NCBI RefSeq assembly: GCF_003201565.1
Contig: NZ_QJJP01000001.1
Location: 124,001-188,000 of the forward strand
DNA from: Nitrosomonas sp. Nm84
GTDB taxonomy: Bacteria; Pseudomonadota; Gammaproteobacteria; Burkholderiales; Nitrosomonadaceae
Length of the DNA stretch: 64,000 nucleotides
Reading direction: 5' to 3'
Position numbers and translations under genes: made by a program. The first letter of the stretch is position 1. Each line of letters begins with the position of its first letter. Below are positions 37,444-43,596 of the stretch, piece after piece. The notes under the pieces were generated by a model. That model was given only the letters and a program-made list of their open reading frames with translations. It ran no database searches and had not been told where the DNA came from.

Positions 37444-38075
37444 ATGATCCGTCAGCAAAAAAACAAAATTTCGTTTCTGATTACTTTAATCATAAGCCTA
37501 TTTCTGATTTTACCCACGCAAATACTCGCGGAAGCTACTGTTTATTCGACGTCGGAAGGTTCTGTTTATTATTCAGGAGAGACATACCCCTTTTATTATT
37601 CAGACACCCTGCATATACCACGCATCGATACTCATAACCAGCCGGGTCTGTACCAAAGGGCAATGCTGCAGTTCGATCCATCGATGCATGGCGATTGGAA
37701 AGAGTTGATACACTTTCAATCGCTAACGACCGCATTAAACAAGTTGATTTGATTATCACAGAATCCTTACCCGTTCAGGTTTATCTTCAAATAAGAGGTC
37801 AATTTCACACTGCATGCGGTGGCTATCCCATCATCAGCGACAGGCAAAATGACGAGAAATTCGAAGTAACCGTAGCTTTCGATACGCAGCGCTTTCCAGA
37901 GGAAGAAACGCCATGTACTGCCGGTGATTCCCTTATATTCCATCCATTGCAAGTCTATGGTTTAGTTGCAGGAACCTATGAATACGTTATTAATGGTACA
38001 TATACCGGATCATTTGAATTAAAGAGCCATAACCTAATCCCACGTTCCTTGGTAAAGCTACCCACTACAAATTGA
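37444..38075 (+). pseudogene. Exported hypothetical protein, disrupted by a frameshift
   Basis: Frame 1 starts at ATG 37444 with a signal peptide (cleavage near LAEA) and ends at 37752. A second frame, open from 37638 to 38075, continues what looks like the body of the same protein (VDLIITESLPVQVYLQIRGQ, then a Cys-Gly segment, then TYEYVINGTYTGSFEL). They overlap for about 115 bases and differ by one base. A missing A near TGGAAAGAG (about 37696-37703) would join them. It may be an assembly error, a true pseudogene or a frameshifted gene. The family is not recognised. Confidence 0.6.
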
Positions 38076-38374: not shown

Positions 38375-38836
38375 ATGGCTAATCTATCTCAATCAATTAA
38401 GCATATGCTCGTGCAGTCATCGCTGGTAATGTTGGTCGTTTCACATGCGGCGATGGCTGGCGAATCTCCGACCGTTGCACCATGTTGCCAACAATCTGAT
38501 GCACAACAATCCCGCTTGATTGAGTTGCCCGCAGCAGCCGTTCAGAAATTGAAAATTAATGCCGGATTCGGCTGGGGAATTTTTAGTGGTACGATCTACA
38601 ACGGCAATGAAAATTACCATGTAACACAGTTGGTTGTCAGCATGGAACCCATCCACGGCCATCACCACATGGACGCGCATGCCACCATGTCGCACGACCC
38701 CAAAATACATCATATTGATCTGGATCTGCCGCCGGTATCGAAAGGCGCTTTATCGATGCCCTTAGCCAATGAAGATGTTCACATTCATGATTTCAAGTGG
38801 GAAATCATTAAGGTCATGGGTTATCAAACACGCTAA
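38375..38836 (+). CDS. His-rich exported protein, unknown
   Basis: The 153-residue protein has a signal peptide (residues 1-28, cleavage near MAG|ES) and a CC pair at 37-38. It carries clustered histidines at 94-113 (HGHHHMDAH and SHDPKIHH) and more at DVHIHDF near 126. A mid-section WGIFSGTIYNGNENYHVTQL looks like beta structure. The His clusters suggest metal binding, perhaps Cu or Zn, in the periplasm. No known family is recognised. AAGGAT lies about 7 bases before the ATG. Confidence 0.65.
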   Translation: MANLSQSIKHMLVQSSLVMLVVSHAAMAGESPTVAPCCQQSDAQQSRLIELPAAAVQKLKINAGFGWGIFSGTIYNGNENYHVTQLVVSMEPIHGHHHMDAHATMSHDPKIHHIDLDLPPVSKGALSMPLANEDVHIHDFKWEIIKVMGYQTR

Positions 38837-39620: not shown

Positions 39621-41186
39621 ATGTTTAAACATTTTCTTCCTGCGCGAGGAGTTTGGCACCTAAAGTATCTGATAACAGCTACTTTTGCCCTCTTCTCATT
39701 TACTTACGAAGCTATCACGCCTGCACTGGCAACAGGACCAGAAGTGCACTTGAAAGGACAATTTGGCCCCCTGCACAATTGGCCAATCATACCGCTTGCC
39801 ATGATGCTTATGCCCGATGGACGAGTATTTGCTTATGGGACAACTCCAGCTGGTATACAGAATGCCAAATTGCATTATGCGATTTGGGATCCTTCTTTGG
39901 GTACCGGCACCAATGCGTTTGAAACTTTACCCAATACCACCAACACAGATATTTTTTGCGCCGGTCAAGCACTGATCCCTGCAACCGGCCATGCGCTGAT
40001 CGTCGGCGGAGATGCTTTGGTGAACACAAAACGTAATTATGCAAATAGTGATGTTAATATCTTTGATCCGACTACGGATACACTCATACGCCAAACTCAA
40101 AATATGGCTTATAAGCGCTGGTACGCGACGGCAGTAACTATGCCAAATGGCGAACATGTCATACTGGGTGGTCGTAACGATAGAAATTTTGCAGGAACAT
40201 CAACTATTCCAGCTACCGTGGAAACCTATTCGCCCATACCGGAGGTACGATCGGTGGCTGGCAATTGGCGATCACTCAGCACAGCAAACAGTGATTCTGC
40301 TTACGGAGGACTCGGCGGCGCCTCGTGGTTTTATCCGCGAGCCTGGGTGAATCCACAAGGTACGATATTTATTCTTGGACACAATGGGCCAATGTATAAG
40401 CTCGATATTTCAGGTACTGGTACACTCACTAGATACAAAACAAAAACTGCAGTGGGACGCAATAACATACCCAGTGTGATGTTCGCTCCTGGTCGAATTC
40501 TCGCTGTCCGCAGAGATCGTGTAGCCGTAACCGTTGATATCAATGGTACCGGTGAACCTATTGTAGCCCCAGCCGGTCTTCTAGCAAAAGATCGTCAGTA
40601 TGGCAGTGCTACTGTACTTGCCGATGGCCGGGTCTGGGTCAATGGCGGTTCATCAACTGGCAATGATCTAGTAGGCATGGCATTAGAATCTGAGCTTTGG
40701 GATCCAAATACTGGGAATTGGACAACCACAGCAAGCGCAGCTACAGCGAGATTATATCATTCCGCTTCACTCTTGCTTCCGGATGGAACTGTAATCACTG
40801 GAGGAGGTGGTGCACCAGGTCCACTCAAACAACTAAACGGTGAAATTTTCTACCCGCCTTATCTGTTTAAAACAGATGGCAGTGGCGAATTTGCACCTCG
40901 TCCGGAAATTATTGATGCCCCGACAACAATGATCACTTGGGATCAAGAATTTTCAATCGAAGCAACCGCCAGCATTTCCAAAGTCACGCTTATACGTGTA
41001 GGTGCAGCCACGCATACATTTGATCACGAGACGCGTTTTTTTGATCTACCCGTCCCACTCGCAGGCAACATTGTGACCGTGCGAACACCGGCAACGGCCA
41101 ATATAGCGCCTCCAGGTTTCTATATGGTTTTTGTATGGGATGCTTCAGGAGTACCTTCCATCGCAAGAATCATACAAATTGGCTAA
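39621..41186 (+). CDS. Secreted copper-radical oxidase (galactose/glyoxal oxidase type)
   Basis: The 521-residue protein has a hydrophobic N-terminus (residues 15-35, ending near ALATG) and is probably exported. The body is a kelch-type propeller, and the end (about 425-521) is the E-set domain of galactose oxidase. The copper/radical residues are all in place: Cys113 in FCAGQAL, Tyr168 in KRWYATAV, Tyr379-His380 in LYHSASLLLPDG and His465 in ATHTFD. Cys113 and Tyr168 would form the thioether cofactor. It should oxidise primary alcohols or aldehydes to yield H2O2; the substrate is unknown. The start has GGAG upstream. Confidence 0.85.
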   Translation: MFKHFLPARGVWHLKYLITATFALFSFTYEAITPALATGPEVHLKGQFGPLHNWPIIPLAMMLMPDGRVFAYGTTPAGIQNAKLHYAIWDPSLGTGTNAFETLPNTTNTDIFCAGQALIPATGHALIVGGDALVNTKRNYANSDVNIFDPTTDTLIRQTQNMAYKRWYATAVTMPNGEHVILGGRNDRNFAGTSTIPATVETYSPIPEVRSVAGNWRSLSTANSDSAYGGLGGASWFYPRAWVNPQGTIFILGHNGPMYKLDISGTGTLTRYKTKTAVGRNNIPSVMFAPGRILAVRRDRVAVTVDINGTGEPIVAPAGLLAKDRQYGSATVLADGRVWVNGGSSTGNDLVGMALESELWDPNTGNWTTTASAATARLYHSASLLLPDGTVITGGGGAPGPLKQLNGEIFYPPYLFKTDGSGEFAPRPEIIDAPTTMITWDQEFSIEATASISKVTLIRVGAATHTFDHETRFFDLPVPLAGNIVTVRTPATANIAPPGFYMVFVWDASGVPSIARIIQIG

Positions 41187-41241
41187 AAAATCGCTTGTGA
41201 TTCACAATCCGCATGGTAACTAATAGCTACGGTCAGGATAA

Positions 41242-41273
41242 AATAGCCCCGTGTTTTGTAACACGGGGCTATT
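41242..41273. terminator. Bidirectional rho-independent terminator
   Basis: AATAGCCCCGTGTT (41242-41255) pairs perfectly with AACACGGGGCTATT (41260-41273) across a 4-base loop. It lies between convergent genes (oxidase on +, lipoprotein on -) and has A/T flanks on both sides, so it can serve both directions. Confidence 0.85.
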
Positions 41274-41285
41274 AACTCGTAATAT

Positions 41286-41699
41286 CTACTCTGTTTTTAT
41301 AGCAATTACTTCATCAACTAAATCGTTCTCATCATACTTAACTAAATAAGCCATTTCATCACCACTGAATGTTATTTCAGTCGGTATACCCACGAGTTCC
41401 CATAATCCCAACGTAACAACGCTTGCAGCGCCATGGAAAAAGGCTCTGCTTACTTTGGCTCCCGTGCTATATCCTTGAACAAACTTAAAGATTTCAATTT
41501 TTTTATTATCTTTATATTCACTGATAATGGGTGCGCCGTATTCGGCAATTAGTACAGTCCTTGGCACACCTATACTAAATAAGCTGATATCTTTCTTAAC
41601 CGGTTGTTTTGCGGCCATAAAAACAGAGCACCCAGAAACTTGAGTAACCAATAAAGCCAATAGCAAAATAGGAAGCATGCATCGCTCTAAAATAATCAT
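41286..41699 (-). CDS. Small lipoprotein, unknown
   Basis: The 137-residue protein has a signal peptide ending in the lipobox VSGC (residue 24). IGVPRTVLIAEYGAPIISEY is a SmpA/BamE-like pattern (a G-P-x-x-x-L-x-x-x-G-x-P type turn). A small hydrophobic helix lies at GAASVVTLGLWELVGIP. The family is not named. It converges on the oxidase gene at a shared terminator. Confidence 0.7.
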   Translation of the reverse strand: MIILERCMLPILLLALLVTQVSGCSVFMAAKQPVKKDISLFSIGVPRTVLIAEYGAPIISEYKDNKKIEIFKFVQGYSTGAKVSRAFFHGAASVVTLGLWELVGIPTEITFSGDEMAYLVKYDENDLVDEVIAIKTE

Positions 41700-42456: not shown

Positions 42457-43596
42457 ATGTACACTGAAAATATCGTTAAAACTCGAGCCAACACTACCTC
42501 TACTCACTTAGCTAGAGAAACACACAGCACATTGACTACATTATTATTTATCCTAAGCATGATATTGATCACTTGGGGAACGTATGCTAACGGAGCGGTC
42601 ACTCCAAATCCCATCAAATGGCATCCTGGTCACTACGTTATGCTCGTAGGTTCAGGCAAAGATAGCGCCAGATATATGGACCAAATATACAATGAACTCG
42701 ATACATATTCTGCACTACGCGGAATAGCAATACGTTACGAATGGTCAGAGTTGGAGTCAGCAAAAGGTGTGTATAATTTTGCATCTATCGATAAACACCT
42801 TACTGAGCTTGCGGCGCGAGACAAACGCCTTATAATTTTGCTGGAAATAAAATCATACGATCCTAACGAAATCCTCATACCAGATTACCTGAAAGCTGCA
42901 ATTTATGAAGGCGGAGTATTTGCTTATACCAAAGGATACAATCTCAAGCTGTGGAATACTGCAGTGCGTGATCGCTTAGGTGCATTGGTTCGTGCACTGG
43001 GCAAGCATTTAAATTCCCACCCTAACTTTGAAGGTTTCGGTCTACAAGAAACTACCATGGGACAACTGCTAGAACCACTAACCAGCGCTCAAATAGACGC
43101 ATATTACAGTAATCTGCTCAACATCAATCAGCGCATGCGTAATAATTTTCCCAATACAATGACGTTCCAGCTTACAAACTATCCACGTGGAATTCTAGAT
43201 TCACTTATTAATGGATTAAAAACAATGGGGGCAACATTGGGTGCTACAGACATTTTTCCACAAGAACCAGGATTGCTCTTTCCAGGGTCGAAATATTCAC
43301 CCAGAGGACTCTATACCTACTTTCCTCAGCTTACCAACGTTATTCCTCTGTTAGCTCAAGTAGAAAAGGCAAATTATGAGAACACCAAACACGATGACAC
43401 TGGCTATCAGCCAACCATAACCGAGTTGCTTAATTTTGGGAGAGATAAACTGAAGGCCAATTACATCTTATGGACACGCTCTCCAGGTTACTATGATGAT
43501 GTATTACTAATGCTAAATCAAGCAGCACAAAAAAAGACTCCTTCGGGTGGCCTAAATTCAGTCTGTCCAACCAGCATTGCCTCCTGTATCGACTAG
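42457..43596 (+). CDS. Exported glycoside-hydrolase-fold protein
   Basis: The 379-residue protein has a long N-region and a hydrophobic segment (28-40) ending near YANG. The body has the TIM-barrel pattern of clan-A glycosidases: YEWSELESAKGVYNFASID, RLIILLEIKSY and GFGLQETTMGQ with Glu198 as possible acid/base. GAATCTTTC follows AAAGGA before the ATG. It is likely periplasmic or surface-exposed. No named GH family could be assigned by eye, and the substrate is unknown. Two Cys close to the C-terminus may form a disulfide. Confidence 0.65.
   Translation: MYTENIVKTRANTTSTHLARETHSTLTTLLFILSMILITWGTYANGAVTPNPIKWHPGHYVMLVGSGKDSARYMDQIYNELDTYSALRGIAIRYEWSELESAKGVYNFASIDKHLTELAARDKRLIILLEIKSYDPNEILIPDYLKAAIYEGGVFAYTKGYNLKLWNTAVRDRLGALVRALGKHLNSHPNFEGFGLQETTMGQLLEPLTSAQIDAYYSNLLNINQRMRNNFPNTMTFQLTNYPRGILDSLINGLKTMGATLGATDIFPQEPGLLFPGSKYSPRGLYTYFPQLTNVIPLLAQVEKANYENTKHDDTGYQPTITELLNFGRDKLKANYILWTRSPGYYDDVLLMLNQAAQKKTPSGGLNSVCPTSIASCID

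Follow-up and report, generated by a model that had tools for sequence, protein, structure and literature searches.

The window analysed here, a 64,000-nucleotide stretch of the Nitrosomonas sp. Nm84 genome, encodes a 521-residue protein of the AA5 family. The gene appears to be a real, conserved AA5 copper-radical oxidase gene whose product is probably active. Its active-site residues were located in a 76-row alignment of the window protein and 75 gathered relatives (39-93% identical to it), aligned with three solved enzymes. The gene and the features of its product are as follows (GOx, galactose oxidase):

39621..41186, + strand: AA5 copper-radical oxidase gene, two domains (kelch propeller and E-set), 521 aa (open reading frame, Pfam, PDB relatives, AlphaFold2 model, fold matches)
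39621..39731, + strand: putative export signal of the Sec type, probably cleaved after A37, between ALA and TG (sequence inspection and hydropathy, judged by eye)
39957..39959, + strand: Cys113, which is predicted to form a thioether with Tyr168; counterparts GOx Cys228 and GlxA Cys121 in the alignment; conserved in 76/76 rows
40119..40124, + strand: Trp167-Tyr168, second-shell Trp beside the cross-linking Tyr; aligns to GOx Gly271-Tyr272 and GlxA Trp288-Tyr289; both invariant in 76/76 rows
40176..40178, + strand: Asn186, occupying the place of GOx Trp290, the stacking Trp being absent (alignment; Trp in 0/76 rows)
40755..40760, + strand: Tyr379-His380, the predicted axial Tyr and the first of two predicted His ligands of the copper; counterparts GOx Tyr495-His496 in the alignment; conserved in 76/76 rows
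41013..41015, + strand: His465 of the E-set domain, the second predicted His ligand of the copper; counterpart GOx His581 in the alignment; conserved in 76/76 rows

Fold and copper site

The window protein has the order of domains that defines AA5 membership, a kelch propeller followed by a GO-like E-set domain, with matches to Kelch_6 (1.9e-08), Glyoxal_oxid_N (5.5e-13), and GO-like_E_set (2.2e-21), all exceeding the curated Pfam cut-offs; the last match (residues 427-520) bears out the C-terminal E-set domain that had been read from the sequence. The AlphaFold2 model of residues 38-521 (pLDDT 94.8) superposes on AA5 structures at 1.9-2.5 Å, with first-shell residues matched at the level of the sequence alignment. 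The ratio of nonsynonymous to synonymous substitution rates (dN/dS), calculated for the window gene against two close paralogues and four orthologues, was 0.115-0.177 in five of the six pairs, dS being saturated in the sixth (an orthologue). The N-terminus, MFKHFLPARGVWHLKYLITATFALFSFTYEAITPALA followed by TG, has a basic start, a hydrophobic core, and A-L-A ahead of the likely cleavage site, in line with the export signal of the original prediction as far as this can be judged by eye; inspection of the same sequence found no twin-arginine motif.

The five residues proposed to build the copper site (Cys113, Tyr168, Tyr379-His380, and His465) are exactly placed, and in the proposed order, on the numbering of the 521-residue translation. 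They are among 34 invariant columns of the alignment, and their presence is not attributable to chance because all five are conserved in 76/76 rows. The relatives were gathered using two peptide patterns, one of which contains Cys113, so that invariance at this position is partly selected; however, the Cys-containing pattern is missing from 45 of the 75 gathered proteins, all of which retain the Cys, and its invariance is therefore not a product of the search alone. Of the 79 loci gathered, L061 was dropped for a broken frame, and L040, L042, and L043 because their contigs were already represented as G005 and G032. Protein binding is common among kelch propellers, and a catalytically dead protein retained for binding would fit that general pattern, but the invariance of the five residues, together with their presence in all five AA5 paralogues of the Nm84 genome, makes this explanation most improbable.

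Second shell and substrate class

On its active-site sequence, the window protein is not of the galactose-oxidase (AA5_2) type, because counterparts of Trp290, Arg330, Gln406, and Phe464 are absent and the GlxA arrangement of Trp and Tyr is present. Of the original proposal of a galactose/glyoxal-type copper-radical oxidase, the AA5 fold and complete first shell stand, whereas a galactose-oxidase-type site does not. The R330 position is a gap in the window protein and in 70/76 rows, and those of Y405 and Q406 are gaps in it and in 73/76 rows; F464 is replaced by Leu350 (Phe in 0/76 rows), and H334 by Tyr (Tyr in 72 and Phe in four of the 76 rows). Galactose oxidase itself (PDB 1gof) has Trp290 and the galactose contacts, as well as an extra N-terminal domain, all of which the window protein lacks. 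The residue preceding the cross-linking Tyr is Trp in every row, as in GlxA (W288), and the two arrangements are mutually exclusive among 52 proteins: 48 have Trp before Tyr without Trp290, and four have Gly before Tyr with Trp290, namely GOx, the Pseudarthrobacter siccitolerans galactose oxidase (PsGalOx), one Streptomyces protein, and one Cupriavidus protein. PsGalOx (PDB 9g43, 9g8h), by its structure title a bacterial galactose oxidase solved with galactose, has a chain ~130 residues longer than the window protein, which lacks both the Gly and the Trp.

The Fusarium graminearum aldehyde ('glyoxal') oxidase FgrAldOx (AA5_1; PDB 9n3u) is a fungal enzyme with a WSC domain, 24% identical to the window protein. 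In this enzyme W509, directly preceding Y510, is reported to stack on the cofactor, flipped like GlxA W288, and this stacking is suggested to explain why glyoxal oxidases of fungi and bacteria have an activity in common (PMC13094651). The window protein has the second-shell Trp ahead of Tyr that marks AA5_1, at the level of the motif only. Because of this Trp, and given the precedent of fungal and bacterial glyoxal oxidases, the predicted substrate is an aldehyde or small alcohol, with production of H2O2.

We therefore favor, as the likely reading, an exported AA5 copper-radical oxidase that acts on a small aldehyde or primary alcohol and generates H2O2. The protein would cross the inner membrane, probably via Sec, and fold as a propeller capped by the E-set domain. 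By alignment to solved enzymes, one copper would be held by Tyr379, His380, His465, and Tyr168, the last cross-linked to Cys113 and carrying the radical, with Trp167 stacked above. By analogy, the enzyme would oxidize either a primary alcohol or the hydrate of a small aldehyde and pass two electrons to O2, giving H2O2; galactose is most likely not a substrate. Carbonyl detoxification, peroxide supply, and surface-glycan modification are candidate physiological roles, and the cross-linking of the cell's own polysaccharide, as originally envisaged, is speculation, given that neither a cellulose-synthase match in this genome nor a neighbor shared by the AA5 loci was found.

Several points weigh against this assignment. 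The window protein is 34% identical to PsGalOx and 28% to GOx, versus 25% to GlxA and 24% to FgrAldOx; the sequence is thus nearer to galactose oxidases, which makes the inference of substrate from a single second-shell Trp risky. The Trp-Tyr arrangement may be ancestral rather than diagnostic of aldehydes, and the literature surveyed contained no assayed enzyme of the clade to which the window protein belongs. The spatial clustering of the first shell, copper binding, the Cys-Tyr cross-link, and export are predictions. That the nearest solved enzymes, by both sequence and fold, are galactose oxidases also speaks for a galactose-oxidase-like enzyme that oxidizes alcohols or carbohydrates and acts on surface polysaccharide, but with the galactose-contacting residues and Trp290 absent, and Y405/Q406 falling in a gap, we regard this as rather unlikely.

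GlxA of Streptomyces lividans (PDB 4unm) shares the first shell and the Trp-Tyr arrangement (W167-Y168 in the window protein), which would be compatible with a similar role in processing the glucan of a cellulose-synthase-like partner and thereby shaping the cell surface. The NCBIfam model of GlxA (NF052501) aligns to the window protein (E 1.3e-40), but at 139.3 bits against an equivalog cut-off of 800, and GlxA differs in a long insertion before the Tyr. In Streptomyces, glxA adjoins cslA (PMC3543389), whereas no match to cellulose synthase PF03552 was found in the Nm84 assembly (E. coli control positive), so that the GlxA-type genetic link is lacking there; the family is matched in one of 25 genus genomes examined, a genome in which AA5 itself is matched only distantly. 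No glycosyltransferase was found among the ten window open reading frames scanned with Pfam. This leaves a GlxA-like role very unlikely, even though one Nm84 paralogue (C8) adjoins a gene that by eye resembles glycogen synthase.

AA5 relatives and paralogues in Nitrosomonadaceae

The Nm84 assembly (3.47 Mb in 89 contigs; completeness 99.99%) contains an AMO-family gene (E 1.2e-119; the family is found in 0/14 control genomes). Among the matches listed, the nearest named AA5 protein is from Nitrosomonas sp. GRE_AOB_3 (92% identical), and the top 25 loci belong to Nitrosomonas or to an uncultured beta-proteobacterial 'AOB' bin; further matches include Nitrosomonas sp. Nm166, N. supralitoralis, and N. 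ureae Nm13. The AMO-family gene and the origin of the nearest AA5 proteins confirm the Nitrosomonas-type host that had been surmised.

A 52-row IQ-TREE phylogeny was built from 38 of the 75 gathered proteins, the window protein, its four paralogues in the same genome, six plasmid records (of 25 matching), and three PDB chains; it contains no AA5_1 sequence (FgrAldOx was left out), and the midpoint root serves for drawing only. The 16 short Nitrosomonas proteins group together as a single clade (100/100). It is nested in a branch of 42 rows (100/97), most of them proteobacterial (Burkholderiales, methanotrophs, and others); a planctomycete and an Oligoflexus protein contribute one row each. This branch stands apart from both the galactose-oxidase group (four rows, 100/100) and the group of GlxA with a Nostoc protein (three rows, 100/96). 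The comparison with GlxA and galactose oxidases called for earlier thus places the window protein with neither. Three of the five Nm84 copies fall within the Nitrosomonas clade; the remaining two, both long proteins on long branches, are of unsure placement. Aquabacterium, Azohydromonas, and Ideonella have AA5-like proteins that are ~41-51% identical to the window protein and share its active-site pattern, but these proteins fall outside the Nitrosomonas clade, and no characterization of them was found. Relatives of the short protein also occur in methane oxidizers, in two cases only (a Methylococcaceae metagenome-assembled genome and Methylocapsa aurea; L074, L095). Methane oxidizers, like ammonia oxidizers, depend on copper monooxygenases.

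The gene had been treated as a single one, but Nm84 has five AA5 genes, two of which lie in the following loci:

L019 7053-8528 and 8656-10224: third AA5 copy of Nm84 (C8), adjoining a gene that by eye is glycogen-synthase-like
L020 7538-10609, - strand: fourth AA5 copy of Nm84 (C3), in a single frame of 1024 aa that also encodes DUF642 and carbohydrate-binding-like domains; active-site residues intact

The genes beside the C8 paralogue look by eye like glycogen synthase and phosphoglucose isomerase. Tandem AA5 duplicates were observed in Nitrosomonas sp. Nm166 (L045 6285-7817 and 8001-9548) and in one other genus genome (G005:C39).

The E-set family PF09118, whose counts pool the short form (frames of about 510-580 aa) with long AA5 proteins of several domains (frames of close to 1000 aa), was matched in five of 143 genomes of the class sample including Nm84 (i.e., 4/142 others, with a single match each) and in 12/200 genomes of the order sample, nine of them outside Nitrosomonadaceae. 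Within Nitrosomonadaceae, 49/125 genomes have matches, two of these (G270, G271) by short fragments only, and within the genus Nitrosomonas 37/85, with five matches in each of two genomes (Nm84 and G243). Four single-contig, at least 99% complete genus genomes (G006, G020, G029, and G216) have none, and the family is therefore not essential to the genus. Used as a query, the window protein matched 21 of 61 relatives; near-full-length homologues of at least 64% identity occur in 11/37 genus genomes, among which G008 has the frame broken; another genome (G016) has C-terminal fragments only.

The kind of enzyme is already known, and AA5 proteins have been described in bacteria before. PMC3543389 discusses GlxA and FbfB and counts 22 proteobacterial orthologues (2013), and PMC11267884 cites a Burkholderia AA5 alcohol oxidase and states that bacterial AA5 exist outside the two subfamilies. 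An AA5 protein in a proteobacterium is hence no novelty. Judged by titles and abstract openings, and with subscription literature largely outside the search, no published account of AA5 enzymes in Nitrosomonas was found. On a Burkholderia ambifaria plasmid (L123 334-3683), an AA5-like gene overlaps an annotated SCO family (copper-delivery) gene by four bases, as if co-transcribed.

Gene neighborhood and biological meaning

The AA5 loci examined share no common gene neighbor, and neighbors differ between loci. Around the window gene the following features were identified:

38375-38836, + strand: protein of 153 aa, rich in His and Met, whose start resembles a signal; upstream of the AA5 gene
41242..41273, no strand: 14-bp perfect hairpin, probable shared terminator of the convergent AA5 and 41286-41699 (-) genes (sequence and fold)
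42457-43596, + strand: 379-aa glycosidase-like protein with a signal-like start

The hairpin region (41236-41280) folds at -24.4 kcal/mol (z -7.4), and the hairpin was not listed by a consensus scan; the convergent gene encodes a lipoprotein-like product. The His/Met-rich protein is a possible metal binder: H94, H97, H98, H102, H107, H136, and H138 are invariant in five aligned sequences, and its family is present in 28/61 genomes, all within the genus and regardless of AA5. Farther upstream, an overlapping pair of frames (37444-37752, which begins like a signal, and 37695-38075; +) resembles one secreted protein split by a frameshift, and no relatives of the pair were found in the loci examined.

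The 42457-43596 protein has no Pfam match, and profile comparisons faintly suggest a beta-galactosidase-like barrel (GH35/GH42). Strong matches to its family are confined to Nitrosomonas (15/37 genus genomes, or 16/37 at E <= 0.001), with five near-full-length copies in Nm84 and up to nine in one genome (G030). This secreted-looking gene, 1.3 kb downstream of the AA5 gene, would suit the oxidation of surface polysaccharide by a galactose-oxidase-like enzyme, and the family occurs in 11/11 genus genomes with close AA5 homologues versus 4/26 without (naive Fisher p 1.6e-6, kinship ignored). However, of the loci examined, just the window and its nearest relative have the two genes side by side, and the co-occurrence may simply follow one lineage.

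Ammonia oxidizers live on copper enzymes and are not known to oxidize organic molecules extracellularly. Several AA5 enzymes of Nm84, including at least one that appears to be exported, very probably carry out copper-and-tyrosine-radical oxidation of aldehydes or alcohols, with production of H2O2. What merits attention is the enrichment and multiplication of AA5 in the family Nitrosomonadaceae, along with the second shell of Trp and Tyr found on this branch. The clade offers a test of whether a Trp beside the cross-linked Tyr predicts aldehyde over alcohol oxidation, because the Trp is here set in a protein whose sequence is closer to those of galactose oxidases. As a tentative and still doubtful proposal, Nitrosomonadaceae would be unusually well supplied with copper-radical oxidases (as many as five in a genome), including a distinct Nitrosomonas clade of exported, stand-alone enzymes with an aldehyde-oxidase-type second shell, which would act on a self-made carbonyl or glycan outside the inner membrane and reduce O2 to H2O2, and which, perhaps with the multicopy glycosidase-like proteins, may form a surface-remodeling or carbonyl-clearing system specific to these ammonia oxidizers. 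If so, this exported, peroxide-making AA5 set would be an unrecognized sink for O2 and copper and would release H2O2 at the surface of the cell.
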